In this document: in pieces, positions 4,503 through 52,691 of the stretch
Position numbering within the stretch: position 1 is the first letter of the stretch
Layout of the letters: each line of letters starts with the position of its first letter
Source of the DNA: a virus
IMG/VR virus record: IMGVR_UViG_3300046467_000501
Span: 1 to 52,691 of that record
DNA length: 52,691 bases
Direction: 5' to 3' (one strand)
The notes under the pieces: model-generated
What the model was told of the DNA's origin: nothing
Databases searched by the model: none
The model's input: only the letters and a program-made list of their open reading frames with translations
Position numbers and translations under genes: made by a program

Positions 4503-5250
4503 TGAGCAGTTCCCCTTGTTCGTCTCTGTTATCGTTGAGTTTTAATGCAGCCTTCGACAATTCGTTTACTGACTGGACGAGTTTCGCTATCGCCTTGGTG
4601 TCTTTGCTTTTCAGCGCGGCCTTGATCTCGCCTTGGGTCTTGGAGTCCGGTAGCCAACCCGCTTGAGCCGCATCATTGCAAGCTTCCTTCAATGCCATAG
4701 CCATCTCATCACCTGAGACGGCTCCGTTCGATGTCGGCACCTCCACCTTCTCAGCTTTCTTGGCCTTGGCCTTCGCCTTTGCCTTGGGCTTCGCCTTCGG
4801 CGGTGCCACCTCTGCTACGGGAGCAGTTACCTCTTCCGTGGGAAGGCCGTCCCCACTGTAGATGTAATTAGCTAATCCATGAAGAGAGAAGCACTTGGTC
4901 AGGCATCTCATTTTCGCATCAGAAATATCCCGTGACGAGGGATGAGCGATGCTCTTCATCCTGTAATCCATAACAGGCAACCACATCTCCCGAACCACAT
5001 CACCAATTGTCACCGAACAACTGACCGATGCAGTACCACCCTCATAGTAAGTGGCATCTCTGGTGACGCCCTTCTCGTCAGTGGTGCCATGCCATTTGAT
5101 TGTCAACTCAGGATAATTCTCCATCATAATCCTGTAGGCATGACTCCAACTCAGGTAGGTCAACCCACCCTTCTCTTCCGTGAACTCATTGACGTTGATC
5201 TTCGACAGCGTCTTCCATATCGACGCCGCGCCCAAACTCTTAGCTACCAT
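4495..5250 (-). CDS. DUF1071 (Sak/Rad52-like) single-strand annealing protein
   Basis: Residues 10-130 match the DUF1071 pattern: IWKTLSKINVNEFTEEK, then GGLTYLSWSHAYRIM, a beta sheet region, and DAKMRCLTKCFSLHGLANYIY. This family belongs to the Rad52-like annealases of phage recombination. A flexible Ala-Lys linker (PKAKPKAKAKAKAKKAEK, about residues 150-167) joins a helical C-terminal part. The ATG at 5250 is preferred: it has a GGAGGAAGAGG site inside the preceding nuclease gene, and the longer reading adds residues that are only a frame-shadow of that nuclease. It overlaps the nuclease by 11 bases, so the pair is coupled. Confidence 0.8.
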   Translation of the reverse strand: MVAKSLGAASIWKTLSKINVNEFTEEKGGLTYLSWSHAYRIMMENYPELTIKWHGTTDEKGVTRDATYYEGGTASVSCSVTIGDVVREMWLPVMDYRMKSIAHPSSRDISDAKMRCLTKCFSLHGLANYIYSGDGLPTEEVTAPVAEVAPPKAKPKAKAKAKAKKAEKVEVPTSNGAVSGDEMAMALKEACNDAAQAGWLPDSKTQGEIKAALKSKDTKAIAKLVQSVNELSKAALKLNDNRDEQGELLNG

Positions 5251-10440: not shown

Positions 10441-10744
10441 CTTCTCTAAATTTTGGGTTGTTGTCTAACAGTTCAGGACGCTGCAATCTTTTAGCCGCTT
10501 GTGCTATGCCCGATGCCACCGCTCCAACTTGAGGGGCGAGGTACTGAGCCACCCGTGGACCGCCTGCCCATGCAACGAGGCCGATCACCAGACTTCCCAA
10601 AAGAACATACGCAGGTTCTGGTACGTCCCAGATCATGGAGTCGAGAACGATGAGGGTGCCCGTAAAAGCTAGAGATCCGAAAAGGAATGTTCTGGCAGCA
10701 CTGAGGTTGCCGCGCTCATCTGTGAGTATTTCTTTTATCGGCAT
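10427..10744 (-). CDS. Holin-like protein with two membrane segments (105 aa)
   Basis: Residues 18-40 (ARTFLFGSLAFTGTLIVLDSM) and 46-63 (AYVLLGSLVIGLVAWAG) are hydrophobic, and the tail is charged and polar. Two spans, small size and a place directly upstream of the peptidase fit a class II holin. The ATG shares bases with the stop of the giant 2731-residue protein (TAATG at 10746-10742) and the end overlaps the peptidase gene by 14 bases, so lysis genes are coupled to late virion genes. Confidence 0.65.
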   Translation of the reverse strand: MPIKEILTDERGNLSAARTFLFGSLAFTGTLIVLDSMIWDVPEPAYVLLGSLVIGLVAWAGGPRVAQYLAPQVGAVASGIAQAAKRLQRPELLDNNPKFREDDEG

Positions 10745-13700: not shown

Positions 13701-16700
13701 TGCTGAGAACTTCACCGTATTTCGCTATCTCCCTTTGCCACGCACGTTTTGAGGACTTCCAAGTGGCTAAACGCCTGTCAGCGAAATTCAACCTGAATTT
13801 CTCTCTTATGCTGTACTCCATCATCTTTTCAAAATCTGCTCTAGTTCCTACAAACTTTGGCCTACCGTCCTCGTCTGTCCCAACTTGGTTGTGGTAGTCT
13901 GTCGCATTGACTATCTGCTCTCCCCCGGATACACCACTAGATCCTTCTACCCATCCCTCATCAATAAATCTCTGGTTAGATGCTTCCGTCTCACTAGGTG
14001 TGACCACATCGGTTTTACCAAACCGGAAGAGACGAAGCTCTCGACTGTCGGTAGGCATACGATACGCTGGCTTCCGGCCATCCTTGAACCTGAAGTAGGC
14101 ATTCAATGATTCAAGGTCGATGTCACCATCCTCTATCGCCTTCGCATTGAGCATGGGTGATATGAAATTAGGGGTGCCTTCAATCTGTCTTCGTGCGCTC
14201 AGTTCACTGATCAGAGATTCCTGCAACCGCTGGTGGGGGGTGAGGGTTGGATCAGAGAACTCAAAGGTAGAGTCCAGTATTATATCTATGGCTTCGTCTA
14301 TTTTTGCGGGATCACCATCCTTGACGGCGTCCCTCAATCGCTTGGCATCCTCTGGTCTGGCCCGTTCAATGAGGTGCAGCGACATCACACCGTCCGGTGA
14401 TTTCGCCTTTTCCCTTCTGCGCTTCATCGTATCCACGTTCTGGAGCTTCTCAAACACCTCCAACACAGGGAGTATGTCCGCCTCTTCGGCACTACTCGCT
14501 ATGGCACCGAACACCGCCTTTAGCTGACGCTTGATCTTGCCGATTAGGCCAGAGGTTCTAGCCACTGGGATCTTGTCCTGAACAAGGGCGTCCAAAATAT
14601 GGACAGACGTTTCTTCTGTTAGTGCCTCACCCTCAAGCCGGGGGATATTATTCTCATCCGTGTAGACTTCCCCAACATACTCTCGCCAAGTCAGCCCCCG
14701 CTCATGGGCATTTGAATCAACTTCTTTGGGCACTCTGGTGCGACCATACCTATCCAATGCCTTGCGGTCGCCGTCGTTCAACCATTGTCTGACGAAATGA
14801 ATATGCGCCCCTTCGTGGGCCACGGCGTCCTTGATCAGGGTTTCGATGTCGGCCTCTTTATGCTTGCCCACAATCTGCGAGAGATTGAAAACTATCCGGT
14901 TACCATAGTTTTGCAGGGAAGCTACGGCCCCACCTTCATATGTGGGTCTGTATATGGGATTGTCATTGGCATCTTTTGCCAACTTCGGCTTGCCATCTTC
15001 TATGATGACCTTGCCATTCTCGTCCATCTCGACCACAAAGGCCCCATTGATTATGACATCCTTCACTTGGGCCATCATATCGTCCACGTTAGCCGTGAAC
15101 TCAACAATGACATTCTCCAAGCCAAGCTTCTTGAGAGTCCTCGTTACGATATCCTTATATTTTTTAACCCTTTTACTCGCTTCTTCTATGCTTTTGGCAT
15201 CACCAACTATTTGATCTTGAGGCTTAACATCAGCCATGATACCCTCACTAACTTCCCGCAGGGTCTTTGCTAACTGTTCTTTCTCTTTCTTGGCTTGTTT
15301 CGTCCTGTCTGGTATGGGTTCAGTACGCAAAACACGCTCAAAAACCATTTCTTGTTGACCACGACCCAAGTCACTCCAATCGACATCGGTGCCCAGTGTG
15401 TCACTGATTAGTTCTTTAAAGAACTTTGACTGGAATAAGCTACCCGACCTCTTCCACTGCGATACTGAGAAATTCTTTATCCCTAACAGTTCCTTGAAAA
15501 CATTTTCCGTGAGATCGTATCCACTTTTCTGGAGTTTTTCGATTAACTTTTTAATCCTACCATCAGCCAACTTGCCCAGAGTAATACCAACCCAATCCTT
15601 GGGTGGTCTTTGATCCATGCCCTCTTCTTCAATTACGTCCGCTAGAGGATCTATCGCAGCTAATCCTAGGATAGCGTCCACGGCTCTCTTGGCTTGAGTT
15701 CTGCCATGTGCCCTGCCTTCTTGTGCGGTGCCCCTTGGCCCAGCGCGTGTACTTGGCTTGGCTTCTATCGGGGATACCATGGGCCTGCGAACGGCCTTGG
15801 CTGGCACTGTCTTGCGGTGGGGAGACGCTTGCCTGCCAGTCCTGCCCGACTGCGTCCATCTTAGACTTATCCCTTCACCACCAAGGATGCGTTCGACATA
15901 GCTAGTGGCCTCTGCGGGGGTCATGCTTAGTTCTGCGTCTGCGTCTGCGGCTGCGGATAGGGCAGCTAATTCCCTGTAAGCCTCCCTTTGTTCTGGGCTG
16001 ACCAAATATTCTTCAAGTTCAAAGTTGCCATCGGGGTCAGCGGGATCTGACAAGGTGTCGATAAGGACAGGACGAGATTCGATTTCACCATAAGCTTCAT
16101 TTATTCTTCTGTTCTGATATTCTTCACTTTGCAGTTGTTTCAGTCCGCCAACTATGCGATCTCTACTGCTATTTCTAATCTGTTTTATGGCCTCTTCTTT
16201 GAATTCTGCAAGCGACAACTTTGTTATTGGCTTGCCCTTTTTTATGATGACGTTGCCATCCTTATCCCTCTGCGGGGGATCAATGTCAGGGAATTCTTTA
16301 CGCATCTTTTTTTCAGTAGCGACATCAATCGCCTTCAGGCTCTTGGCTAATTCTTCCTTTGCCGTTTTCACACCATCGCTTGCAAGCTGATCAAGCGTTG
16401 ACGGTTCAATAACGACATCGCCTTCATTGAGAGAATCCAGAAGGGCTTGGTCACGCTTTAGTCCCCCTTCAAGTCTTCTGACCTTATCTTCGGGGCTCGT
16501 CGCATTCTCCAACTGTGTTCGTAGCTCGTCCCTCCTTTTTATAGAATGATTGTACTCTCTCCTAGACCTTCTTTGGTTATCTATGTCCGTCTTCGTTGCG
16601 GGTAAAAGCGAAGCTGGATGAATCGCATTCTTTCTTGGGGTGCCATCTTTCTTGGCGGGGATCGAAGGAATCTTTCCCGCCTCTGTAAGGTCATATTCAG

Positions 16701-18939
16701 CGTTGCCCTCTGCATCTATTGCAACCGTACCCTGTATCAACCCATGATCTAGTTCATCCCTTATAGCTTCCTCTTCTGCCGCTATCAGGCCCTCAATGAC
16801 CCCTCTTTCATTTGCAAGAGCCTGACGTTGTTGAGGGCCTGCCTCCACCCCCGACTTCCATGACCCTGTGTCTTCATCGTATGTCGCTATCTTCTCTAGT
16901 TCCTTCCTTCTTTCAATAACTCTCTCGTTTAGGTGAGCCCCCTGCTCCGTATACTTAAAAACATCGGCATCGATCTTATCTTCTGTCTCAATGATTTTGT
17001 CCGCAGTTAACGGGAGCAGTCGTTTTTCGACCTGATCAACAACTTCCGTGACTGGTATGCTCGTCTTGGATGGCATCACATCTAGGGTAGGCACGGGCGG
17101 TGCCGCTGGCTCTAGTACGTTTCTAATGCCTTCAATATGTTTATCTAACTCCCCTACACGCTGATCATCCCTCTTTTTTCTAGCCTCCTTACGCTCTTGC
17201 TCTGCCTTCTCAAGTTCGTTGTTCAAGAGAATATCGTCATCGGGCTCCGCGACTATTCTTTGCGCTTCTAGCGTAGCCTCCGCTGCTTTCTGTTGTGCGG
17301 CGTCAATGCCAGATTCTTTTAGGGCAAGTGTAGACCCCAGAATGAGCATTTCTCTATCAAAGTTGGCGAGCCTATCATCTATCTGTCCTACAAATTTATC
17401 ATGTTCAGATTGGGTTATGGTTCCTGCTTTCAGGTCATCTGCTAGGCGTTTTTTTGACCTTATAGCCCTCTCTTTATTCGCCCCTGTTAATGAGTTTTTC
17501 CCTTGCTTCCTTCTGACAGATCCATCTTTGTTGAAGATAAGGTTGCCATCTCTATCTCTGGCAAATACTGAGGCACGAAGCGCATTAAGGTCTTCATCTT
17601 CCTGAATTGCCGCATCAAGTTCCTCATCAAGAGATGCTTCGGCAGCTTCTATCTCAGTTTCAGTTTGTCTTATTGCATTGTCCCGCTCTTGCTGTGTTTC
17701 ATTCGGCATTGATTCCCATCTAGCGAGAATCTCTTCTCTTGCAACTTGTTTACGTCTCTCTACATCAGCACTAACAGCGTTCAAATCGGGGCCAGTGATT
17801 AGTCGATCTATGTCTGCTTCTTGGAACTCTCCCGCCGCGACCCTTTTCTCGTAGCGTTTTTGGACACGCCTGTTAAGGTCATAATTTCCTCGCTGTCCTT
17901 TCACGTTAGCTACCGCTCTAGCACTCATCTTCAACATCAGATCGGTAACGGCACCAACCTCACCACCGATCAGTGCTTCCCTGAGTGCTTCGACACCTGC
18001 ATCGGCCATAGCTTCCTCGTCATACATATACCTAGCCACGGCAGACTGACCGAATCCTGCGAGTCCTTCCTGTATTGCTTCGTCTCTAGCCTGTCTTATG
18101 GCCGACTTACCGATCTGACCCCAAGTCATATCAGCAGCATTGGCGACCACCCTCTGCGTTGCTTCAGACGCTCCCTTCCTGCCAAGCCCTATGCCTTTGG
18201 CATATTTACCCAAGGGTGCTATTTCGCTCAAGCCAATACCAAGGCCCATACCAAGGGACAGGATCTCTTTGGCTTTGCTAATATCTTCACCAGTGCGCTC
18301 TTCGTACTCAGCCATCCTTCCGGCCTGCTCACCAGCACCCATGAGAGCGGTCGCAACGCCCGCTACACCCGTTGCAGCGGCACCACCCAATCCCAACGCA
18401 CCAGCCCCTGCGCCTAAGCCGATCATTCCACCTACCTGCCCAAGTCCCATGCCTAGGTGGACTAGGTTGGCGTCCCGATACTTGGGATCTACTTCCATCA
18501 TAAGATCGTTAAGTCTCTTTCTCAGTGCTTTTTCACGGTCAGTGTCTCTATCAGGGGTACGAAGACCTTCTGCGCCCTGTAGGGCCATTAAGCCGAATTG
18601 CCTAACTCCTCGCGGTATGCTCTTGATACCTTCCCACGCTGACCCAAGGATGGTGCCCCCAGCTTCAGTGCCGTACTCATCGGGAGGAGGTTCTTGCAGG
18701 GAAGGGATACCTACCTGCCCAGAGGGGAATCGGGCTTCCATCATTGCTTCAAGATTGGCTGATCTCTCTGCAAATGATCCACGATCTTGTGGCTCTGGCT
18801 GCATCTGTGGCTGTGGCGAGGGTGTCCCGATGTTAAACCTTGTCCTGAGTTCCCCCGCTATTTTATTGCGCTCTTCTATAGAAAGGTTATCGGGGATCTC
18901 TATTACGGAGCCATCGGGCAGACGAATCGTTTCCGGCAT
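10744..18939 (-). CDS. Giant polyvalent ejection protein with zincin and LPD38-like domains (2731 aa)
   Basis: The start MPETIRLPDGSVIEIPDNLS is a common head of such proteins. Residues about 95-260 hold long Gly/Ala-rich hydrophobic stretches (GGMIGLGAGAGALGLGGAAA) that could insert into a membrane. A very long charged helical middle follows. A metallopeptidase motif HEGAH lies at 1375-1379 with EETSVHILDAL about 85 residues later as a likely third ligand. Near 2185-2310, SPPFVIKNIIRDSW and the later INYGRRGA and MSPFLNGR resemble the LPD38 domain of polyvalent proteins. These are packaged and injected with DNA. Position before the lysis genes equals that of T7 gp16. It may span the envelope and cleave host or virion proteins. 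No lytic transglycosylase motif was seen. Confidence 0.8.
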   Translation of the reverse strand: MPETIRLPDGSVIEIPDNLSIEERNKIAGELRTRFNIGTPSPQPQMQPEPQDRGSFAERSANLEAMMEARFPSGQVGIPSLQEPPPDEYGTEAGGTILGSAWEGIKSIPRGVRQFGLMALQGAEGLRTPDRDTDREKALRKRLNDLMMEVDPKYRDANLVHLGMGLGQVGGMIGLGAGAGALGLGGAAATGVAGVATALMGAGEQAGRMAEYEERTGEDISKAKEILSLGMGLGIGLSEIAPLGKYAKGIGLGRKGASEATQRVVANAADMTWGQIGKSAIRQARDEAIQEGLAGFGQSAVARYMYDEEAMADAGVEALREALIGGEVGAVTDLMLKMSARAVANVKGQRGNYDLNRRVQKRYEKRVAAGEFQEADIDRLITGPDLNAVSADVERRKQVAREEILARWESMPNETQQERDNAIRQTETEIEAAEASLDEELDAAIQEDEDLNALRASVFARDRDGNLIFNKDGSVRRKQGKNSLTGANKERAIRSKKRLADDLKAGTITQSEHDKFVGQIDDRLANFDREMLILGSTLALKESGIDAAQQKAAEATLEAQRIVAEPDDDILLNNELEKAEQERKEARKKRDDQRVGELDKHIEGIRNVLEPAAPPVPTLDVMPSKTSIPVTEVVDQVEKRLLPLTADKIIETEDKIDADVFKYTEQGAHLNERVIERRKELEKIATYDEDTGSWKSGVEAGPQQRQALANERGVIEGLIAAEEEAIRDELDHGLIQGTVAIDAEGNAEYDLTEAGKIPSIPAKKDGTPRKNAIHPASLLPATKTDIDNQRRSRREYNHSIKRRDELRTQLENATSPEDKVRRLEGGLKRDQALLDSLNEGDVVIEPSTLDQLASDGVKTAKEELAKSLKAIDVATEKKMRKEFPDIDPPQRDKDGNVIIKKGKPITKLSLAEFKEEAIKQIRNSSRDRIVGGLKQLQSEEYQNRRINEAYGEIESRPVLIDTLSDPADPDGNFELEEYLVSPEQREAYRELAALSAAADADAELSMTPAEATSYVERILGGEGISLRWTQSGRTGRQASPHRKTVPAKAVRRPMVSPIEAKPSTRAGPRGTAQEGRAHGRTQAKRAVDAILGLAAIDPLADVIEEEGMDQRPPKDWVGITLGKLADGRIKKLIEKLQKSGYDLTENVFKELLGIKNFSVSQWKRSGSLFQSKFFKELISDTLGTDVDWSDLGRGQQEMVFERVLRTEPIPDRTKQAKKEKEQLAKTLREVSEGIMADVKPQDQIVGDAKSIEEASKRVKKYKDIVTRTLKKLGLENVIVEFTANVDDMMAQVKDVIINGAFVVEMDENGKVIIEDGKPKLAKDANDNPIYRPTYEGGAVASLQNYGNRIVFNLSQIVGKHKEADIETLIKDAVAHEGAHIHFVRQWLNDGDRKALDRYGRTRVPKEVDSNAHERGLTWREYVGEVYTDENNIPRLEGEALTEETSVHILDALVQDKIPVARTSGLIGKIKRQLKAVFGAIASSAEEADILPVLEVFEKLQNVDTMKRRREKAKSPDGVMSLHLIERARPEDAKRLRDAVKDGDPAKIDEAIDIILDSTFEFSDPTLTPHQRLQESLISELSARRQIEGTPNFISPMLNAKAIEDGDIDLESLNAYFRFKDGRKPAYRMPTDSRELRLFRFGKTDVVTPSETEASNQRFIDEGWVEGSSGVSGGEQIVNATDYHNQVGTDEDGRPKFVGTRADFEKMMEYSIREKFRLNFADRRLATWKSSKRAWQREIAKYGEVLSRLAENSAVAAWRIADNAMNFIPGVMSHGMIVYVDGGFRLQRDVKGLHEIIGPLVEMGEAAEVSATIYMAAKRVVDLQAKREVARQELDALIQTGASVDDIIAARRNKESWEQAYDDANPLKTPRQRNIPIDDAKAEIARIESSEAEMDLAIVQFGKEYATFNHHVIQFGMDTGLVSIERGEIMQELSFIPFYRDMGWENNDPMSNSENENVRKKKDKAVSEGAEKEVATRGGPLIDQQIRGSLLPISTDLFGNLQRNVQAMIRDGMTNIATTRSMRDEVANGTAELLIEPSDEQLSRQRYLQIQKEKYAKLKTQDMPQDMATELTELNATITELNEQRSDQMERLKKRGFSSMIVTAKGISTDLNNENQTTGIEEAGISKSYLVLDPELSRAIMSIGFSPQQAIEDFFGKAIKNERLRKGLTKLVVGPAKILREAVVRSPPFVIKNIIRDSWQASVNYGGGPALFFKAMANFATPDILVRAEERGLGIAVDWQADPNDPAAVDIRKKLKKQKRGKLSSPSAWLNPLDWAVNLWDVLGDMSKRSEVATRMAVYDNTMAKTDGNAAESLHQAIEIINYGRRGASPMFAVMTAMSPFLNGRIQGLDVTYRTHAGSMDAPGLFGEEGVTDVDSKTLRTQRQLTAVSRGALFIGATAMYYFMVKDDEEYKNTREDLKNDWWLIPMGNGLHVKIPIPFEVGTLYKVIPEQILRMMFEQEHDVRDVRDEMARQIKGSLMMDLRPQFIRPMIDAWSNKDAYQRDAIVPQWMEDTVMASEQYNPYTSMITRLVGDKLNDIPFLKNVDFLNSPMKLEYMMRQYGGTLGSYLFVAADRLAREATDENVVGTSADFGFDWRTVASMPMLGDLLYDAQKGGGFQEDFYEAVEDMNTLVTTLGQIKEGRGYEEAKEFEQEHKGMFDAKRRLQYFERRMKHYRTERDRLFERTDLSDDDKRRQLFRMFEIRDDMLAEMVNIMGDIREERSVMEAALGTRP

Positions 18940-45482: not shown

Positions 45483-46964
45483 TTAGTAGTAATCTGCTTT
45501 ACGCATAGGCAGAATATCTTTCCATGGATCGTCGCTGTCCAAACTTATAAAGCCACCTTGCCTGAATCGCAACAAAGCCTGAGTCGATGAATCAACTAAA
45601 TCATCGTGGTCGCCAGTAGGGAAGGCAGCAAATTGCTCTATCACTTCTTCCGCCCATCTTTTTTTGGGTGCCCAAACATGACCACTATGGAACAGATCGG
45701 ATACCGCATTGACTCTGGCAATCTTGTCCTTGCCTCGTCCCGGCGTGTATTCCGCAACCGGGATACCGATCCTACGCAATTCAAAAATCAGTGGACTGCC
45801 CGCCGCTTTCGCTTCCACGATACACGCATCGGGTTTGTATTCCTTGTACATATCGTAAGCGCGTTTCTTCAGGTCAGGAAATTCCAGACGTTCTTGTAGA
45901 GCGTCCAATAGGATGATGTTCGCTTTCTTGTCTTTGTCTTCGCTGTAGAACACACCCCATGTCGTGCAAGCACTATAGTCGGCAGTCTGTTTGGCGAGAA
46001 ACGCCGTGTCCCAAGACTGAATCACGAATTCGCAGTCCGGTGGATCTTTCTTCGTCCATTCATTCCACCATTCGCGCTTGATGATCGCGCCTTCTTCCGA
46101 AGTCGGGTCTTGCTGATACTGGGCAGTCCATTTGCCTACCGGAAGCTCCGCTTTCAAAGCCTCAAGTTGTTCCAGTGGCCAGAACCCCGGCCACAGCGGT
46201 TTGCCGCTAGGAAGGATAGCAGGTAGTTCGATGATTTCCCACTCGTCGGAGCCGCCCCTTTCTATGGACGCCTTCAAAATAGAGCCCGTCAGATCCTTCT
46301 TCGACCAACGGGTCATCACCAGACAGATCGCACCCCCCGGTTGCAAACGCTGGCGTGGACCGGATGTGTACCATTCATAAGTCTTGTCGTAGACGGATGG
46401 ATCGTTCTGTGCCGCTTCCTGCTCAGAATGGGGATCGTCCACTATGAGAATGTCCGCGCCCTTACCTGTTACCGCACCACCAACCCCAATAGCAAAATAG
46501 TCGCCACCAACATTCGTGTTCCAACGACCAGCAGCCTTGGAGTCCACACTCAAGGAAACATTGGAAAATATTTTTGAATAATCGTCGGAGCCTACCAAGT
46601 TGCGGACCTTGCGGCCAAAGCCAACCGCGAGTTCCGCAGTGTGTGCAGTCTGGATAACCTTTCTGTCTGGGAACCTTCCCAGATACCAAGCAGGAAACAG
46701 ATGGGATGCGAATTCCGATTTGGTGTGTCTGGGCGGCATATTGATGATCAAACGCTTCAACTCGCCGCTTGCAATGCGATTGAATGCGTCCGCCATCACA
46801 CGATGATGGTCACCTTCGATGAACGCAGGCCAAACCTCTTTGACAAACTCCAGAAAATCTCCTTGGGCACCTTCCCTCATCCTAGCCGCGTTGAGTTCCT
46901 CAATAAGACCCAGAATCTCACGCTTCTCGTTGACAGGCAGCGCGTCAAGAGATTTTAGATTCAT
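45483..46964 (-). CDS. Terminase large subunit (TerL)
   Basis: The ATPase half has LIINMPPRHTKSEFASH (Walker A, about 72-88) and DILIVDDPHSEQEA (Walker B, 171-178, with a tandem Asp). MTRWSKKDLTG is the coupling motif. The nuclease half has SWDTAF (Asp319), VEAKAAGSPL (Glu384) and DHDDLVDSSTQAL (Asp454-458), the RNase H-like metal sites. With 493 residues it is complete. It drives DNA into the procapsid and cuts concatemers. No small terminase could be identified nearby; the preceding gene codes a membrane protein. Confidence 0.92.
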   Translation of the reverse strand: MNLKSLDALPVNEKREILGLIEELNAARMREGAQGDFLEFVKEVWPAFIEGDHHRVMADAFNRIASGELKRLIINMPPRHTKSEFASHLFPAWYLGRFPDRKVIQTAHTAELAVGFGRKVRNLVGSDDYSKIFSNVSLSVDSKAAGRWNTNVGGDYFAIGVGGAVTGKGADILIVDDPHSEQEAAQNDPSVYDKTYEWYTSGPRQRLQPGGAICLVMTRWSKKDLTGSILKASIERGGSDEWEIIELPAILPSGKPLWPGFWPLEQLEALKAELPVGKWTAQYQQDPTSEEGAIIKREWWNEWTKKDPPDCEFVIQSWDTAFLAKQTADYSACTTWGVFYSEDKDKKANIILLDALQERLEFPDLKKRAYDMYKEYKPDACIVEAKAAGSPLIFELRRIGIPVAEYTPGRGKDKIARVNAVSDLFHSGHVWAPKKRWAEEVIEQFAAFPTGDHDDLVDSSTQALLRFRQGGFISLDSDDPWKDILPMRKADYY

Positions 46965-47201
46965 TTATCGCCTGTCCTTAATGAACTCGACCAACAGCTT
47001 GATGTCTGCCCGAATTTCACCCACAGACACTTTGAGTTCCGATACCGCCTTCGCGTTCTCTTCGTGTCTGCGCCCAAATTCGTTCTTGACCTCGTAAAGA
47101 GAGAAGACCAAGAAGCGGTAGAGTGCGTAGATGGCTCCCAAGAGCAATACGAGCGGTAAGCCGTATGACTCTATCAGGCCCAAGATGCCGTCAGGTTCCA
47201 T
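46965..47201 (-). CDS. Membrane-anchored coil protein, first gene of late operon (78 aa)
   Basis: GLIESYGLPLVLLLGAIYALYRFLVFSLYEV is one membrane span, followed by a charged coil (FGRRHEENAKAVSELKVSVGEIRADIKLLVEF). The end abuts the TerL start. Similar peptides occur in other phages near terminase or lysis genes and are often called holins without proof. Two genes at 30951-31513 have the same plan. It does not look like a small terminase, which would lack the membrane span. Confidence 0.6.
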   Translation of the reverse strand: MEPDGILGLIESYGLPLVLLLGAIYALYRFLVFSLYEVKNEFGRRHEENAKAVSELKVSVGEIRADIKLLVEFIKDRR

Positions 47202-47255
47202 GTGGCACCGTCCTTGGAATCTTTTAGTGAGATTAATGCCCCCACCAATAAAGTA

Positions 47256-47284
47256 GTTATGCGGGTTCTGTTCCAGTCTGTCAA
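47256..47284 (-). promoter_or_regulatory. Sigma70-like promoter for the morphogenesis operon
   Basis: On the minus strand a consensus TTGACA (47284-47279) is followed after exactly 17 bases by CATAAC (47261-47256), with the start site expected near 47249 and the first gene at 47201. It is the only good promoter found for the whole 38-kb late operon. The rest of the operon must be driven from here or from internal sites that I could not see. Confidence 0.6.
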
Positions 47285-47545
47285 GTTGTTTCTTTATTGT
47301 GATGTCACGATAAGTTGAAATTTTTATATAAAATTTTTAGGGGTAGGAGTCCCAGTGCAAAATCTGGTGATCTAGCGAGCAAAATACTGTTTTATTGTGG
47401 GGGGCGGCGGCGGGCCAAAAGGGGGGGGTCGGGGGTACTGGGGCCTTGCGCCCCCCACCCTATTACCTTCTATTTGTGTCACGGAGAGAGGGGGCCACGA
47501 TGGCACCCTCAATAACTCTGTCACCCTCCATAAAGGAGAGACACC
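47285..47545 (+). promoter_or_regulatory. Divergent intergenic region: AT block, G-tracts, leader of the accessory operon
   Basis: No gene is visible in this gap. A possible rightward promoter is TTGTTT (47286-47291), 17 bases, GATAAG (47309-47314), of modest quality. An AT block at 47315-47338 ends in TTTTTAGGGG, resembling the AT block before the 10-bp repeats in the right arm. G-rich runs follow (47397-47450), including GGGGC/GCCCC hairpin arms, then a Pro-coding-like stretch that I regard as untranslated leader, and an AAAGGAGAG site for the gene at 47546. Confidence 0.4.
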
Positions 47546-47992
47546 ATGCGGTACATCACCATCACCACGGACTCCCTCTATCAACGTCTTATGGACAACG
47601 TCAGCGCACTAGCAGACGCCAACGTGTCCAAGATGGTAGAGGCAGACACGGACGAAGGGGTAGAGCTTCCCTTCAGCCCCGCCGATGCGTGGGAAGTTGA
47701 AGAAGAAGACCAGATTTCCGACCTAGGCTTTCTGACCGTCTACTACGAGAAGGTACACGATCCCAACGCGGACGATTACCAGTCTCGTTCGCTCGTTCCT
47801 GTCGAGGTCTTCGAATCGAAAGCGGGGAACATCTTGATGAGGGCCTACGATTTCCGGGCGGGATTCGTGAAAAGCTTTAGGCTCGACTCTGTACAGCGTA
47901 TCCTGATTCGGAACCAGAATCTGGGAGACTCCGAATGGGGTGTTAGAGACATCACATTTCGGGGAATCTCAGAGCGGTCCGAATCACTCTAA
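47546..47992 (+). CDS. WYL-like accessory phage protein (148 aa)
   Basis: Residues 81-121 carry RSLVPVEVF, GNILMRAYDFRAGFVKSFRLDSVQRIL, which follows the WYL-domain rhythm (Pxxl, GxxyLxAyd, then g.vrtFrlDRI). WYL domains sense nucleic acid ligands and regulate other proteins. The N-terminal half (MRYITITTDSLYQRLMDNVSAL) has no HTH that I can see. A small WYL protein at the head of an accessory operon could be a regulator of that operon or of host defence. The assignment rests on pattern only. Confidence 0.55.
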   Translation: MRYITITTDSLYQRLMDNVSALADANVSKMVEADTDEGVELPFSPADAWEVEEEDQISDLGFLTVYYEKVHDPNADDYQSRSLVPVEVFESKAGNILMRAYDFRAGFVKSFRLDSVQRILIRNQNLGDSEWGVRDITFRGISERSESL

Positions 47993-48002
47993 CCCTTCAC
48001 AG

Positions 48003-48027
48003 GGGGGGGAGCATCTAGCTCCCCCCC
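48003..48027 (+). other. Intercistronic G/C-tract hairpin 1
   Basis: GGGGGGGAGC (48003-48012) and GCTCCCCCCC (48018-48027) form a 10-bp stem with a 5-base loop, ten bases after the stop of the WYL-like gene. No T-run follows. The element recurs after each of the next three genes with different inner base pairs, so the structure and not the exact sequence is kept. Confidence 0.7.
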
Positions 48028-48054
48028 AGTACTTCACACAAGAGGAGAAACACT

Positions 48055-48312
48055 ATGTCACATCCGGGCAACGATCAGATCATCGACGCAATGCGCGACA
48101 AGATGCCTAACCTTACACCCGACCAGATAGGTCGATTGGTTTACCTGATCGATGCATATGGTAGGCATCAACATACACTGGGCCAGTTGAACATGATCAA
48201 TACATCCGATAGAAGCTCTGCATTCGATAAGCTTCGTGTCGAGTACACGCAACACTCTAAGGACACGAGGGAGGAGATCACAGAGATCATCGAGATCCTG
48301 TTCGACTACTAA
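48055..48312 (+). CDS. Small helical accessory protein (85 aa)
   Basis: An AGGAG site lies before the ATG. The sequence is helical throughout: MRDKMPNLTPDQIGRLVYLIDAYGRHQHTLGQLN, then AFDKLRVEYTQHSKDTREEITEIIEIL. It has the look of a small two- or three-helix bundle. No family is recognised. It lies in an operon of similar small genes thought to act on the host or on transcription. Confidence 0.6.
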   Translation: MSHPGNDQIIDAMRDKMPNLTPDQIGRLVYLIDAYGRHQHTLGQLNMINTSDRSSAFDKLRVEYTQHSKDTREEITEIIEILFDY

Positions 48313-48319
48313 CAAAACA

Positions 48320-48360
48320 GGGGGGGGGATTCACCCCCCCCCATCACCCCCAAATCGGGG
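48320..48360 (+). other. Intercistronic G/C-tract hairpin 2 with SD mini-hairpin
   Basis: Nine G (48320-48328) and nine C (48334-48342) enclose ATTCA. Four bases later CCCC (48348-48351) and GGGG (48357-48360) form a mini-hairpin that contains the ribosome binding site GGGGAG of the next gene. The ATG is nine bases past the G run. Coupling of the two hairpins could tune translation of the zinc-finger protein. Confidence 0.65.
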
Positions 48361-48369
48361 AGAACGAAA

Positions 48370-48741
48370 ATGTTTGAACACATCAGCACCATAATCGGCA
48401 GAGTGTTAGGGGCCACAAGTTGCCCAGACTGTGACGGTAACGACAAGAACGACGGCCCCGTGCCGAACGAGAAAGATCGGGAGATGTGGATCGATCTCGC
48501 AGGATACTATGTCGAGTGTCCCATGTGCGAAAATGGCCGAGTCTACTGGGAAGACAATTGGCTTGCAGGTGGGGAGAACCATTGGAGGGCTCGCACTCAG
48601 GAATGCGAACACTGCAAGGGCTCCGGGGAATTGAGAATTCACGACCGCTGTGGGACTTGCGGAAGGTTAGAGCAAGCCTACGGCACGGGACCGGAGAGGG
48701 TGGACGATGATGATAGGATACGCGACCACCTAGAATATTAG
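48370..48741 (+). CDS. DnaJ-type zinc finger protein (123 aa)
   Basis: Four CxxC pairs, at residues 18/21 (CPDC), 50/53 (CPMC), 79/82 (CEHCKGSGEL) and 94/97 (CGTC), could bind two zinc ions. The third pair has the exact CxxCxGxG look of the DnaJ cysteine-rich domain. No J-domain is present, so it is a stand-alone zinc domain, as in several phage proteins and in small anti-sigma or chaperone-like factors. The C-terminus is acidic. It may bind nucleic acid or unfolded protein. Confidence 0.7.
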   Translation: MFEHISTIIGRVLGATSCPDCDGNDKNDGPVPNEKDREMWIDLAGYYVECPMCENGRVYWEDNWLAGGENHWRARTQECEHCKGSGELRIHDRCGTCGRLEQAYGTGPERVDDDDRIRDHLEY

Positions 48742-48749
48742 GAAAGACA

Positions 48750-48792
48750 GGGGGGAGGCACTCCGCCTCCCCCCTCCACCCCCAGATAGGGG
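48750..48792 (+). other. Intercistronic G/C-tract hairpin 3 with SD mini-hairpin
   Basis: GGGGGGAGGC (48750-48759) pairs with GCCTCCCCCC (48765-48774) over a 5-base loop. It is followed by CCCC (48780-48783) and GGGG (48789-48792) around AGATA, holding the ribosome site of the gene at 48802. The string CACCCCCAGATAGGGGAGCA is shared exactly with the module before 49061. Confidence 0.7.
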
Positions 48793-48801
48793 AGCAGGAA
48801 A

Positions 48802-49002
48802 ATGGTTAAGATTCAGGGGTATCACTACTTCGCTAGTTCTGCGTTACACTGGCGCGTGAGCGGAGACATCTGCGATCTAGTCCGTAAGATGGATGAGATG
48901 GGGAACGAAGAATACAAGGTGTATCGTGTCCCTCTACCTCTCCATGCTACCTATGACATCATTCACTATGTGCCAGTTGTTGAAGGAATCGAAACACTTT
49001 GA
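48802..49002 (+). CDS. Small accessory protein (66 aa)
   Basis: MVKIQGYHYFASSALHWRVSGDICDLVRKMDEM, then YKVYRVPLPLHATYDIIHYVPVVEG: beta-rich with aromatic residues and a central helix. The ATG is nine bases beyond a GGGGAG site in a mini-hairpin. No family recognised. Position inside the hairpin-separated operon suggests an early or host-takeover role. Confidence 0.6.
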   Translation: MVKIQGYHYFASSALHWRVSGDICDLVRKMDEMGNEEYKVYRVPLPLHATYDIIHYVPVVEGIETL

Positions 49003-49011
49003 ATCAAGACA

Positions 49012-49054
49012 GGGGGGAGGGGCTCACCCTCCCCCCGCCACCCCCAGATAGGGG
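49012..49054 (+). other. Intercistronic G/C-tract hairpin 4 with SD mini-hairpin
   Basis: GGGGGGAGGG (49012-49021) pairs with CCCTCCCCCC (49027-49036) over GCTCA. Then CCCC (49042-49045) and GGGG (49051-49054) around AGATA hold the ribosome binding site of the small membrane gene at 49061. It shares 20 bases with module 3. Confidence 0.7.
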
Positions 49055-49060
49055 AGCATC

Positions 49061-49171
49061 ATGTACGGACAAGACGAGGTTTTCGTAGCTGTAATATTCG
49101 TTGTCGGGTTTACGATCCTGCTCGCTTGTTGGCTCGCTGAACAATTCTTTAACGGTAGGGGGAGAGACTGA
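49061..49171 (+). CDS. Small membrane protein (36 aa)
   Basis: ATG six bases past the GGGGAG of the mini-hairpin. MYGQDE, then VFVAVIFVVGFTILLACWLA (one clear membrane span) and a basic tail NGRGRD. The stop overlaps the next ATG (TGATG). It is the first of three small membrane peptides in a row, which may form a complex or be coupled only by packing. Confidence 0.65.
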   Translation: MYGQDEVFVAVIFVVGFTILLACWLAEQFFNGRGRD

Positions 49172-49308
49172 TGGACGACACATCGATTGAACTACTTAGG
49201 TCGGTCTTAATAACCGCCCTATTCGTGGCCATGGTTGGTGTTGCCTTACTGGAACTCAGGAAGGTAGTAACCCGTAAGTGGCGCGAGGTTAGAGAGGAAG
49301 GCAAATGA
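49171..49308 (+). CDS. Small membrane protein with basic tail (45 aa)
   Basis: A span from SVLITALFVAMVGVALL (about 11-27) follows a short acidic head (MDDTSIELLR), and the tail is strongly basic (RKVVTRKWREVREEGK), predicted to stay in the cytoplasm. It shares one base with the gene before it and four with the next (ATGA). No homologue is known to me. Confidence 0.65.
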   Translation: MDDTSIELLRSVLITALFVAMVGVALLELRKVVTRKWREVREEGK

Positions 49309-49391
49309 TAAACAACAACAATCCCATGCCTCTTATAGGCCTCGTAATCTTTGCCATGTTCCTGTGGGTACTGATCACCTTCAACATCTAG
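49305..49391 (+). CDS. Tiny membrane peptide (28 aa)
   Basis: MINNNNPM then PLIGLVIFAMFLWVLITFNI, a single span filling the rest of the peptide. It begins with an ATGA overlap on the preceding stop and is followed after eight bases by the next ATG, with GGAGAGAGA between. Although very short, it is supported by the overlap and by the even hydrophobic profile. Confidence 0.55.
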   Translation: MINNNNPMPLIGLVIFAMFLWVLITFNI

Positions 49392-49399
49392 GAGAGAGA

Positions 49400-49660
49400 A
49401 TGATGAAAGACGGCGTAACGATAAGGGAGATCGCGATCTGGACCTTGACCAAACACCGGGATGCAGTCGGTGAATACTTGGACCTATCTGATGAAGAACT
49501 CCAGAACCTTTTTCGACGGCTATGTGCAGACGATCCTGTGCGATTTGAGGGGGTTCTAAAAGAGGAGGAGAGATACGGACACGCTCAGTTAACTGGACAA
49601 GAACTCTATGACCATGAAAACCCTGCACCCTTAGAAAATCCAATGGACTGGGAGAAGTAA
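49400..49660 (+). CDS. Small acidic accessory protein (86 aa)
   Basis: MMKDGVTIREIAIWTLTKHRDAVGEYLDLSDEELQNLFRRL, then a helix and a Glu/Pro tail (QELYDHENPAPLENPMDWEK). The start at 49400 (or 49403) is chosen for the GGAGAGAGA before it; the open frame upstream only covers the previous membrane gene. The helix-turn LSDEELQNLFRRL is common in small phage proteins. It ends just before the operon terminator. Confidence 0.65.
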   Translation: MMKDGVTIREIAIWTLTKHRDAVGEYLDLSDEELQNLFRRLCADDPVRFEGVLKEEERYGHAQLTGQELYDHENPAPLENPMDWEK

Positions 49661-49676
49661 GTAGAGCAAGCAACAT

Positions 49677-49708
49677 GGGGGGGGCCGAAAGGCTCCCCCC
49701 TTTTTTTT
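49677..49708 (+). terminator. Intrinsic terminator of the accessory operon
   Basis: A G8CC arm (49677-49686), a GAAA tetraloop and GGCTCCCCCC (49691-49700) form a 10-bp stem with one G-U pair, followed by eight T (49701-49708). It resembles the four upstream hairpins but has the T-run that they lack, so it is the real end of most transcripts. Confidence 0.9.
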
Positions 49709-49766
49709 GTGCCTACTGTTCACCTAACTTGAGGCCACGATCCCATCCACCTAGTGAGGGTATGCG

Positions 49767-49934
49767 ATGAAGAACAAGAGGAGAGACAGTAGCCACAGCA
49801 AGAAGCATAGACGCAATCGTAAGGCTAATAACCTGCGGCGAGGCAGACCCAAGCCGAACCAGACACCCAAGCACATAAGAGAACTCAACAAGATACTAAG
49901 GCGCACGGGTCAACCGATCTTCGACAAAGGGTAG
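49767..49934 (+). CDS. Small, very basic protein (55 aa)
   Basis: The ORF has GTGAGGG six bases before its ATG and codes MKNKRRDSSHSKKHRRNRKANNLRRGRPKP, then a helix IRELNKILRRTGQP. About 40 percent of residues are Lys or Arg with almost no acid. It could bind RNA or DNA. It lies past the operon terminator, so read-through or its own promoter would be needed. No promoter was found. Codon use is sound for a gene, but evidence is limited. Confidence 0.5.
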   Translation: MKNKRRDSSHSKKHRRNRKANNLRRGRPKPNQTPKHIRELNKILRRTGQPIFDKG

Positions 49935-49970
49935 GACAGCAGGGGGGGGAAGAAAAAAAAATTAGAGACA

Positions 49971-50048
49971 GGTACGGGCGTCGGGTACGGGCGCGAGGCG
50001 CGGAAAATTTTTTAAATAAAAATTAGGTACGGGCGTCGGGTACGGGCG
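49971..50048 (+). repeat. Two pairs of GGTACGGGCG direct repeats with AT block
   Basis: GGTACGGGCG occurs at 49971-49980, 49984-49993, 50026-50035 and 50039-50048. In each pair the copies are 13 bases apart from start to start, with a TCG spacer. An A/T-only tract of about 20 bases (50004-50023) lies before the second pair. The same paired repeat recurs at 51063 and 51899. It lies in the gap between convergent genes. Confidence 0.85.
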
Positions 50049-50062
50049 CGAGGGGTAGGCAC

Positions 50063-50097
50063 AAAAAAAAGAGGGCCACCCTTTCGGGTGACCCTCT
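50063..50097 (-). terminator. Intrinsic terminator of the DUF932 gene
   Basis: On the minus strand AGAGGGTCACCC (50097-50086) pairs with GGGTGGCCCTCT (50081-50070) around GAAA, with one G-U pair, and a run of eight T follows (50070-50063). It begins 19 bases past the stop of the gene at 50116. The direction is leftward only. Confidence 0.9.
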
Positions 50098-50115
50098 CCT
50101 CTATCCCCCCTCCTC

Positions 50116-50931
50116 TTAGTTGAGTGACAGTGTTTCCTGATTCCTATCTGTCCACGTTCCCGCTTGGGTGACTAGTTCTTTCCCTAGCCTGTGGAATCTG
50201 GACATCGATGTCGGAAGCTCTATGATGTTGCGATCCTTGAGAACCTCAGTGGTGGCGTTATTGAATCCCCACATGGTCGGCTGCTCAAACTCTTCATGAC
50301 TAGGATTCCGGTACTCTTTCAGAATCTTAGGAGCGTAGGCCCATGGGAAAGCGCGAGCATCGCAAAGCCTAACGAGTAGATCGTGGGCCACGTTATTCTC
50401 TAGGCTAGTCTTCTTATAAGACTCGACCAGTTGAGTGTGGTCCGTGTGCGCTTCGTCAATCTCTCCCGCCAACTGATTGAGCCGTGACGGTAGAACCTGA
50501 CGCACGTTTACGCTGTGCTTGTGGCTCGCCTTGAACTCTCCCATGAAATCAAGGTTACTGCAAACCATGACAACGAGTCCCGCCACCATGCCCGCGCTCA
50601 TCGTCTTGTCGTGGCTGTTGCGGATGCCGATAGCCAACTCGTAATCCTCCCCGATGGCTACATCTTCTCTCTGGATTTTCAAGACACCGAATAGCCTTGT
50701 GCTATCGTATCGGATATCCTCCCCGCCAACCTCAACCTTCCCGCTTTCCAAAGCGTAACGCTGTTCGGTAATGTCCCAACCGAATCCGCCAAGCGTTCGG
50801 TTGACCATGTCGAGAAACTCACCATGCGGAAGCGGTATGTGGCTACGCGTTTCCGGCGGTGTCTCTGTCGCTCGCACCTGCTCCTCTGTTACCGTCGTGC
50901 CACCGATGAGCGTCGTTCTCACGTTCGCCAT
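50116..50931 (-). CDS. DUF932 phage protein (271 aa)
   Basis: The sequence has the family pattern I recall: HGEFLDMVNRTLGGFGWDI, RYDSTRLFGVLKI, then YELAIGIRNSHDKTMSAGMVAGLVVMVCSNLDFMGEF, and KHSVNVRQVLP. DUF932 proteins occur in phages and plasmids, often as single-gene transcription units with strong expression, and no function is settled. The gene has its own promoter (50978-51006) and terminator, suggesting an abundant and independently controlled product. A DNA-binding or anti-defence role has been supposed for such proteins, without proof. Confidence 0.7.
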   Translation of the reverse strand: MANVRTTLIGGTTVTEEQVRATETPPETRSHIPLPHGEFLDMVNRTLGGFGWDITEQRYALESGKVEVGGEDIRYDSTRLFGVLKIQREDVAIGEDYELAIGIRNSHDKTMSAGMVAGLVVMVCSNLDFMGEFKASHKHSVNVRQVLPSRLNQLAGEIDEAHTDHTQLVESYKKTSLENNVAHDLLVRLCDARAFPWAYAPKILKEYRNPSHEEFEQPTMWGFNNATTEVLKDRNIIELPTSMSRFHRLGKELVTQAGTWTDRNQETLSLN

Positions 50932-50977
50932 TTTCTTTCTCCTATGTGGGTGAATGGCCGTTCAATTAACTTACACC

Positions 50978-51006
50978 AATCTACAGTGATCGAGTCACAT
51001 TGTCAA
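50978..51006 (-). promoter_or_regulatory. Sigma70-like promoter TTGACA-17-TAGATT for DUF932 gene
   Basis: TTGACA at 51006-51001 and TAGATT at 50983-50978 on the minus strand are 17 bases apart, followed by GGTGTA. The promoter at 51727-51755 has the same -35, spacing, -10 and following GGTGTA, so the two form a family. The gene starts 47 bases past the -10. Confidence 0.7.
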
Positions 51007-51062
51007 CCACCATCACCACATTATTTTACCACCATGACCCACACCTATGTTATATTTTTTTA

Positions 51063-51085
51063 GGTACGGGCGTCAGGTACGGGCG
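51063..51085 (+). repeat. GGTACGGGCG pair, third site
   Basis: Copies at 51063-51072 and 51076-51085, spacer TCA, preceded by a T-rich block (51051-51061) in the gap upstream of the DUF932 promoter. The second copy overlaps a hairpin (51081-51106). Confidence 0.85.
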
Positions 51086-51106
51086 CGGGACATAAGCCCC
51101 GCGCCC
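51081..51106. other. 9-bp GC hairpin next to third repeat pair
   Basis: GGGCGCGGG (51081-51089) and CCCGCGCCC (51098-51106) form a perfect stem around an 8-base loop. It lies seven bases past the end of the small gene at 51113, in the terminator position for leftward transcripts, but has no T-run. It may be a rho-aided terminator, and it shares bases with the repeat, so the two may be mutually exclusive. Confidence 0.5.
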
Positions 51107-51112
51107 TATCCC

Positions 51113-51337
51113 CTAAGCAGGACGTATCTGATTCCCCCAAGCCCAATGCTCATTGTCTAGATCCACTAACACCTTCCGCTCTACAACAGTGTCCCATCCC
51201 ACAAGCTGTACATCTTCACCATACTTTGAACCATTGGATTCATTAACCTGAATCCCTCTTACCTTGACTAGTTTCTCAGGATCACTGCCCCAACCACCAC
51301 GCCACAAGACCGAGTCCCCTACTTTCAGGTCAGCCAT
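51113..51337 (-). CDS. Small beta-barrel-like phage protein (74 aa)
   Basis: MADLKVGDSVLWRGGWGSDPEKLVKVRGIQV, then KYGEDVQLVGWDTVVERKVLVDLDNEHWAWGNQIRPA. The start VGDxVxWRGGxG and the GxxxVxxI(Q/E) strands are those of a small beta-barrel family widespread in phages. SH3-like folds of this size bind nucleic acid or protein. The ATG shares a base with the upstream stop in a TAATG junction. Confidence 0.65.
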   Translation of the reverse strand: MADLKVGDSVLWRGGWGSDPEKLVKVRGIQVNESNGSKYGEDVQLVGWDTVVERKVLVDLDNEHWAWGNQIRPA

Positions 51338-51498
51338 TAACCTGTCACCTCCATTGTCTCATCATCAAAGTCGAACAACTCTTGTGGCGCACGGTGCTGA
51401 CCCAACTCCCTTCTTGCTTCCTCAAGGGCACCATCCTCATCCTCAGCCTCAAGATCAAGTGTACCTGTCCATGTATAGGTGACCTCAAAAGTTTTCAT
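51337..51498 (-). CDS. Small acidic protein (53 aa)
   Basis: Found by reading between two neighbours: ATG at 51498 shares its A with the upstream TAA (TAATG), and its own TAA shares a base with the next ATG in the same way. It reads MKTFEVTYTWTGTLDLEAEDED, then ALEEARRELGQHRAPQELFDFDDE, and ends EVTG, as does the gene upstream. It is strongly acidic, and of the beta-alpha kind seen in small 'DUF' phage proteins. An anti-host role through DNA mimicry is possible by charge only. Confidence 0.65.
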   Translation of the reverse strand: MKTFEVTYTWTGTLDLEAEDEDGALEEARRELGQHRAPQELFDFDDETMEVTG

Positions 51499-51686
51499 TA
51501 ACCTGTCACCTCCTTGTGGCGATCTTCAAAGGTTACCATCCAATCCAACAACACCTCTTGCGCCTCGTTAGTACGCAACCCAAACGCACCAGCCACATAC
51601 TGCCCCGCCCCAAACATATTCGTGACACCCGATTCACGCAGGTTGTCCAGATACTCAAAGATCTTTTCCTTTCTAACCTCGTTCAT
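51498..51686 (-). CDS. Small helical protein (62 aa)
   Basis: MNEVRKEKIFEYLDNLRESGVTNMFGAGQYVAGAFGLRTNEAQEVLLDWMVTFE. The plan, a helix with ExLDxLRESGxxNMFGAGxYLxxxFxLxxxEAxxVLxxWM, is one I recall from many phages. It ends EVTG on an 18-base string that also ends the next gene. It is the first gene behind the promoter at 51727-51755. Confidence 0.7.
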   Translation of the reverse strand: MNEVRKEKIFEYLDNLRESGVTNMFGAGQYVAGAFGLRTNEAQEVLLDWMVTFEDRHKEVTG

Positions 51687-51726
51687 CTGACTAGCTCCTT
51701 ATTGAAAGGGTTGTCTGTCGTACACC

Positions 51727-51755
51727 AATCTATAACAACACTATCACCATGTCAA
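51727..51755 (-). promoter_or_regulatory. Sigma70-like promoter TTGACA-17-TAGATT for the three small genes
   Basis: TTGACA at 51755-51750 and TAGATT at 51732-51727 (minus strand), 17 bases apart, followed by GGTGTA. The gene start at 51686 lies about 40 bases downstream with AAGGAG before it. It is a twin of the promoter at 50978-51006, and both probably work at the same stage. Confidence 0.7.
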
Positions 51756-51898
51756 GGTGTGACGTAACTGTTGGCGACCCAGCTAATCTAGAATGCTAAC
51801 CTCGGACCATGACGCCACTTCTCTGCGAAGCTATCGCGGACCTCTCTTTGCCATCGGTTAGTAGCTGGATCGCCTCACAGTTATTTAATAAATTTTTA

Positions 51899-51921
51899 GG
51901 TACGGGCGTTAGGTACGGGCG
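51899..51921 (+). repeat. GGTACGGGCG pair, fourth site
   Basis: Copies at 51899-51908 and 51912-51921, spacer TTA, preceded by an A/T-rich block (51881-51897, TTATTTAATAAATTTTT). The pair stands seven bases beyond the end of the leftward membrane gene at 51928. No gene that I can defend lies between 51756 and 51898. Confidence 0.85.
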
Positions 51922-51927
51922 TCCATC

Positions 51928-52029
51928 CTATATGATATTTAATCCGAAAAGTAACAGCAGGGTTAGGACGATCACATACACAACCTCAGAGATAACCTCA
52001 CCTATTGTCTGTTTCTTTTTGTACGTCAT
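51928..52029 (-). CDS. Small membrane protein (33 aa)
   Basis: The ATG at 52029 overlaps the stop of the gp88-like gene (ATGA). MTYKKKQTIGEV is basic, followed by ISEVVYVIVLTLLLLFGLNII, a membrane span to the last residue. The basic-in topology predicts an N-terminus in the cytoplasm. It is too short for routine gene calling. The coupling and profile support it. Confidence 0.6.
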   Translation of the reverse strand: MTYKKKQTIGEVISEVVYVIVLTLLLLFGLNII

Positions 52030-52691
52030 ACCACGAAGCCCGACATATCTTTCTTGGCCGAACCCTTAGCAGTTAGGCCGACGATGCACGGCTTCGGATC
52101 TAGGAACCTGAGATCGTGTGTGGTGCCATCAATAACGGGCACACCTAGCCATCCTTTAGGTATCTCGTCCCTAAACACCACGGCCACGTTCATTCCGTCA
52201 TCTATAGCCTTGCACCATTCGTCGTGCGTGGTCGCTTCACTCCGTGAGAAGGTGAGCGAATAGTTTTTCGGTAATCTTTTCCTGTTCTTGATCTTCGTGT
52301 AATCATAGAAGGTCACGTTAGGAAACTGCTCCATGATCCCGGTACGTTCCCACCTGAGATCCGACGTTCCGTTCAGTCTAACACACGGTTTCAGATTGTT
52401 TTTATCCGCCCGCCTCACGATAGACGCAATGTCTTTCGCGAGATCAGCCATAAACCCTGCACGATTCTCAAAAAACATCCTAGTTTTTCTTATTCGTGCC
52501 TCTTGTACCGTGTTCATGCGTCCCCTACCCTGAAAATAGAGACACGCAGTAGAACAACCCTCAGTAGCTGAAGGGCAAACCTGATAACCTGATTGGATGT
52601 GTGGGGCTAGGTGCAGAATGCCCGTGAGATACCCGTAACCTGTAGACTTGGCCGTCTTGGGGTTACTTGCGCCGTCCGTGAGAAGTTTCAT
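52026..52691 (-). CDS. Gp88-like phage protein with Cys cluster (221 aa or longer)
   Basis: MKLLTDGASNPKTAKSTGYGYLTG, then CPSATEGCSTACLYFQGRG, RKTRMFFENRAGFMADLAKDI, VRLNGTSDLRWE, NVTFYDYTKIKNR and SLTFSRSE. This order is that of a phage family named after mycobacteriophage gene product 88. The three-Cys motif suggests a metal or iron-sulfur site, and a TIM-barrel-like pattern (VRLNGTSD, FYDYTK) recalls radical-SAM folds, though no activity is proven. The window ends at the ATG, so an upstream extension cannot be ruled out. The start reads like the usual family start. Confidence 0.7.
   Translation of the reverse strand: MKLLTDGASNPKTAKSTGYGYLTGILHLAPHIQSGYQVCPSATEGCSTACLYFQGRGRMNTVQEARIRKTRMFFENRAGFMADLAKDIASIVRRADKNNLKPCVRLNGTSDLRWERTGIMEQFPNVTFYDYTKIKNRKRLPKNYSLTFSRSEATTHDEWCKAIDDGMNVAVVFRDEIPKGWLGVPVIDGTTHDLRFLDPKPCIVGLTAKGSAKKDMSGFVV

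Follow-up and report, generated by a model that had tools for sequence, protein, structure and literature searches.

The right arm of the viral DNA analysed here raises the question of which protein, if any, reads a short direct repeat, GGTACGGGCG, that recurs in the gaps between its genes. The window, that is, the whole stretch of DNA that was analysed, comprises the 52,691 bases of a virus record and represents a near-complete phage that lacks a short stretch between its ends. It encodes the large terminase (TerL), portal and major head protein, all oriented leftward; a primase/helicase, a Sak-like annealing protein and an exonuclease; and a ParB-like protein, DUF932 and GP88 (Table 1). A 2731-aa open reading frame at 10744-18939 and the adjoining ORFs of 641, 1013 and 1288 aa had no match in PHROGs.

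The eight copies of the word, arranged in four pairs of the same direction, were found on the plus strand exactly where the sequence-only reading had placed them, all of them intergenic. No further exact copy was detected on either strand of the 52.7 kb window, which bears out the claim that the pairs are confined to gaps of the right arm; the word is also missing from the region of the TerL promoter and from the window's remaining operon gaps. With up to one mismatch allowed, 12 matches were found in the window against 2.1 expected, and in none of 300 dinucleotide shuffles, performed on the intergenic DNA only, did a nine-base word reach the count of eight. The A/T-rich DNA said to lie to the left of each pair directly abuts three of the four; for the pair at 49971, a run of A lies a few bases farther away. 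A junction of A/T-rich DNA with AGGGG, previously compared to the pairs, proved to be a conserved A/T tract upstream of TerL that does not contain the word. An RNA element was rejected, as positions 46900-52691 gave no match in Rfam.

Table 1. Word pairs and neighbouring features in the window
Feature	Position	Strand	Remarks
Large terminase (TerL)	45483..46964	-	PHROG 38, E 1e-105; Terminase_6C; delimits the site-bearing interval opposite TerS
A/T tract with CCCCTA upstream of TerL	47315..47345	-	Conserved; word absent
Site pair 1	49971..49993	+	GGTACGGGCG TCG GGTACGGGCG, reading CGCCCGTACC in the TerL direction; in convergent gap
A/T-rich block	50004..50025		Left of pair 2
Site pair 2	50026..50048	+	Shares the convergent gap with pair 1
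Intrinsic-terminator-like hairpin and T run	50062..50099	-	Ends the leftward DUF932 unit, just before (leftward) pairs 1 and 2
DUF932 gene, 271 aa	50116..50931	-	Pfam PF06067, E 5e-6
Promoter-like TTGACA-17-TAGATT for DUF932	50978..51006	-	Nearest site 66 b away
A/T-rich block	51050..51062		Left of pair 3
Site pair 3	51063..51085	+	Between the 74-aa ORF and DUF932
Promoter-like TTGACA-17-TAGATT for small ORFs	51727..51755	-	Nearest site 153 b away
A/T-rich block	51881..51898		Left of pair 4
Site pair 4	51899..51921	+	Between GP88 and small ORFs
GP88 gene, 221 aa	52026..52691	-	Pfam GP88, E 9e-49; record stops at its start codon

Relatives were collected from IMG/VR contigs by a search for the double word, complemented by searches with GP88, DUF932 and the small terminase (TerS). 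The carriers of the word form a family of uncultured viruses of bacteria with up to 16 copies each; isolated phages gave neither a DNA match to the site region nor a TerS match. Many matches of a scan with loose spacing (for example, L091, L104 and L133) had no TerS or DUF932 match, and the spacings in matches of this type were multiples of three, as in intragenic repeats. Contigs such as L004, L006 and L029 bridge the two ends of the window, right to left, via a stretch absent from the window record, which holds 3-5 additional single copies of the word, spaced by about 41-53-40 in the closest relatives. The gene of a TerS of 145-146 aa lies directly beside these copies, so that in the relatives TerS and a further site cluster are located just beyond the start of GP88. 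Because the window record does not contain TerS, this gene was invisible to the sequence-only reading. As the relatives show, positions 1 and 52691 of the window are neighbours on a circular map, and the short gap between them is possibly an assembly break near the repeats. The circular map would be consistent with headful packaging, of which it is no proof.

Across 15 related loci, 167 copies of the word point one way and two the opposite way, the latter both inside the DUF932 gene (in L004 and L012), and nearly all copies lie between the TerS and TerL genes. Taken in the TerS/TerL direction, the site approximates CTNA-CGYCCGTACC-T, with the core word CGCCCGTACC or CGTCCGTACC. A/T-rich DNA usually comes next: in the family, A+T averages 72% in the 20 bases beyond a cluster towards TerL, compared with 58% on the opposite side. 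Among the relatives, identity is 98.8% in the columns of the sites and 75% between sites. The constant pitch of 13 bases holds within the window and breaks down in the relatives, where neighbouring copies are 11-63 bp apart, most often 13 (38 cases), followed by 15 (12) and 41 (8). The clusters, four to five per phage and about 1 kb apart, extend over 3-4.5 kb. A gene is typically followed, often after a terminator, by the sites, then by a promoter (TTGACA, 17, TATATT or TAGATT) and the next gene; in the convergent gap behind DUF932, which in most carriers holds at least as many copies as any other gap, no leftward promoter follows. Dispersal of the word inside genes and its absence from relatives, named beforehand as the outcomes contrary to the repeat reading, were both checked, and the results did not refute that reading. 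The proposal that the word is the target of a phage DNA-binding protein is well supported by its conservation in relatives, single direction, intergenic location and near-confinement to one interval.

The TerS matches Terminase_2 (E 1e-9) and, in a phmmer comparison, the TerS of Pam5 (E 5e-4). Its AF2 model (pLDDT 85) contains an N-terminal helix-turn-helix (HTH) domain with helices at 10-20, 25-33 and 40-51, and the top Foldseek matches were the TerS of PaP3, NV1 and E217, at a modest best E of 0.008. In every carrier whose contig extends to it, TerS adjoins the outermost cluster. The word is present in L135, with a TerS 50% identical, and entirely missing from L079-L083, with a TerS 48% identical; the TerL of both is about 86% identical to that of the window. 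The TerS cores of the two are equally diverged (42% vs 42%), as is DUF932 (36% in L135 vs 36% in L081), whereas HTH helices 2-3 of TerS are 66% identical to those of the carriers in L135 and 38% identical in L079-L083. Arg40, the residue with which the modelled recognition helix (helix 3) begins, is found in all carriers and is replaced by Asn in the wordless L079-L083 clade. L078 has the word although the identity of its TerS HTH is 50%. This one comparison of sequences suggests that the word tracks the TerS HTH, and linkage could explain much of the association.

The explanation that we put forward, with about an even chance of being right, is that the repeats are candidate recognition sites of the phage's own TerS, which together would make up a pac region of several clusters in the gaps between TerS and TerL. 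Single words would be read by the HTH domains of TerS, and a TerS ring could hold several words at once, leaving the exact spacing free to vary; the common direction of the words would set the place where TerL is loaded and the direction of packaging. The sites are extragenic and mostly located between a terminator and a promoter, which suits a mark on the DNA. As with a pac, they are close to the terminase genes, namely, in the TerS-TerL interval of the carriers covered, and a TerS with an HTH is encoded in the relatives, its gene lying outside the window record. P22, SPP1 and 9g each have one compact site; here, there are several clusters over 3-4.5 kb, so that the region can be at most a variant of a pac. 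No pac described in PMC5567051 or PMC4737164 is spread in this manner. Physical linkage could account for much of the association with TerS, which counts against the packaging reading, as do a degenerate cluster outside the interval in L078 and the presence of only three exact copies in L135. The former (CGTCCGCACC, GTCCGTACC) lies at 5351-5386 of L078, about 3 kb upstream of TerS.

The main rival to a pac is transcription control, in which a phage or host protein would bind the word as an operator, an upstream activating site, or a stoperator or insulator between leftward units. The sites do lie after one gene and before the promoter of the next, along the direction of transcription, often 47-67 b from the -35 element, and a role of this kind has been proposed for the 21-nt repeats of phage TLS. 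The stoperators of mycobacteriophage L5 are 13-bp, asymmetric, intergenic sites aligned with transcription (PMC9283540); like them, the sites described here are many, short, asymmetric, intergenic and of one direction, but the L5 stoperators are genome-wide and bound by the immunity repressor, whereas here the sites occupy one interval and no repressor was seen among the proteins searched. TLS has 18 oriented intergenic repeats (PMC11447400), and the 21-nt repeats of TLS and T1-like phages resemble the present sites also in that their function is unproven; they are located about 76 b upstream of start codons, unlike the sites analysed here, which are clustered and occur in a convergent gap as well. 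It is this gap behind DUF932, copy-rich in most carriers and with no subsequent leftward promoter, that fits regulation poorly. Moreover, distances between site and promoter also amount to 33 and 121-155 b, the sites before GP88 in L011 and L031 are downstream of a promoter, and neither the promoter region of TerL nor any other operon gap of the window has a site. Often the sites come after a terminator and are then not part of the transcripts on which a stoperator would act. Neither a repressor nor an integrase was seen among the searched proteins, with small ORFs lacking any match remaining. On balance, we consider transcription control rather unlikely.

The other alternatives fare worse. 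Iterons of a replication origin, with A/T-rich unwinding blocks and bound by a phage initiator, had been suggested by the sequence-only reading; direct repeats flanked on one side by A/T-rich DNA are what such an origin would have, and beyond this neighbour nothing positive was found. An origin is improbable given that similar clusters recur four to five times in each phage, at intervals of about 1 kb, that the spacing across the family is irregular, which rules out fixed-phase iterons, and that no initiator was identified among the proteins searched. L066 keeps the word although its recombination module is strongly diverged (Sak, 41%; exonuclease, 50%) and its locus gave no primase match; GC skew, proposed as a possible indicator, follows gene direction and shows no change specific to the sites. 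DUF932, one of the binders nominated earlier, is encoded in the interval of nearly all carriers that cover it. It is nevertheless a very improbable reader of the word: the L144 contig, which covers the interval up to TerL beginning immediately behind the TerS region, has 10 sites and no DUF932, and of L135 and L081, with their equally diverged DUF932, the word occurs in L135 alone. No DNA-binding domain was recognised in DUF932, and its AF2 model (pLDDT 54) was too poor for a fold search. Finally, the repeats could be recombination joints, conserved between cassettes for gene exchange by the Sak-like annealing protein. The gene content between clusters differs among the phages, and L003 has an additional tandem unit of 41 bp; we give this explanation hardly any weight, as it does not account for the contrast in conservation between and within sites, the single direction or the confinement.

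Several further partners and sources of the word were rejected. The ParB-like protein, also nominated as a binder, is absent from L030, L031 and L033, carriers that cover its place, so that the cognate ParB that a parS would require is not encoded there; it and GP88 can thus be discounted as partners common to all carriers. Of an RHH protein, likewise proposed, none was seen among the proteins searched. Another gene stands in place of GP88 in L008, L061 and L078, all of which retain the word, and the 74-aa small ORF has no match in L011 or L031. A host motif was dismissed on the basis of four bacterial matches to the double word, in genomes of 60-74% GC, with tandem duplications and no common gene setting noticed; these matches probably reflect chance and tandem duplication. 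The double word occurs as 2-3 tandem 13-bp units at L035 4020-4056, L036 2571-2593, L037 3717-3739 and L038 4988-5020.

The candidate pac is best compared with those of phages in which direct repeats have been described near the terminase genes. The pac of 9g comprises two 21-bp direct repeats and a distant third copy (PMC5567051). The present sites share with it GC-rich direct repeats of one direction (9g core, SRYCRCGGGRCG) near the terminase genes, in 9g with the third copy far off, but instead of two 21-bp repeats and one mapped cut site there is a 10-bp word in several clusters spread along 3-4.5 kb. The pac of SPP1 has direct repeats near TerS (PMC4737164), and the direct repeats of SPP1 and SF6, once proposed as TerS targets, resemble the present sites in lying near the TerS gene; the SPP1 and SF6 pac, unlike the region analysed here, is one compact region spanning the start of TerS. 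The boxes of SPP1 and SF6 differ from each other and have little role in binding of the HTH in vitro (PMC4737164). The TerS of pac phages bind DNA weakly in vitro, with almost no sequence preference (PMC9611059), and both observations count against the packaging reading.

Phages with a related TerL, but with none of the TerS or replication genes of the window family, have different repeats in the same interval. In psg01, GGGCCCACCC occurs five times, always in the TerS-TerL interval, never reversed, and is absent from the rest of the 50 kb read; DSL-LC04 has CGGCCCACG in the corresponding interval. Just before TerL, the L081 clade carries three copies of CTAGCTGGT, in addition to a TGAC array. 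With a looser complexity filter, the repeats of psg01, DSL-LC04 and L081 were reached in 0 of 300 intergenic shuffles and those of the isolated relatives HTVC023P and HTVC027P in 2 of 300 each, a weaker support. Under the strict filter, the intergenic shuffle test gave nothing for psg01 and HTVC027P, and in a stricter test of exact words, the TerS-TerL interval of HTVC023P and of psg01 did not stand out. The claim of own repeats is therefore tentative for HTVC023P and HTVC027P. That the lineages of the wider TerL family have their own repeats between the terminase genes is, on these sequence counts, suggestive only. A generalisation to a distributed pac, in which the terminase would load at several clusters of a lineage-specific word, the word and the TerS HTH would co-evolve, and each lineage of the TerL family, which comprises HTVC023P-type phages and their relatives, would have its own word in this interval, is conceivable, and we advance it with some reservation. 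In the small-gene region of the wordless clade, the palindrome TCTTTCGTGAAAGA occurs four times (L081 5220, 6367, 7327 and 8465).

The way in which the small terminases of headful phages identify their own DNA is unsettled, most of them showing little sequence preference in vitro (PMC9611059). If recognition by TerS is the correct explanation, a sharp, repeated and strictly conserved word whose loss accompanies a change in the HTH of TerS would be a clean natural test of TerS specificity, and packaging by uncultured phages could be traced with the word as a sequence mark.

Other repeated elements were noticed at these loci. In carriers, the gap between TerS and GP88 holds palindromes of the type CTAGATAGTCTAG / ACTAGTATACTAGT, which overlap or follow a TTGACA promoter (upstream of GP88 at L004 ~4850-4891, and equivalents) and are possible operators of another regulator. 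The window has three hairpin-like GGGGGGAGG...CCTCCCCCC elements (48312-48364, 48744-48796 and 49006-49058), followed by a CACCCCCAGATAGGGGAGCA leader, before small rightward genes, and at the matching place, L031 has a different repeated hairpin (11539-12679).
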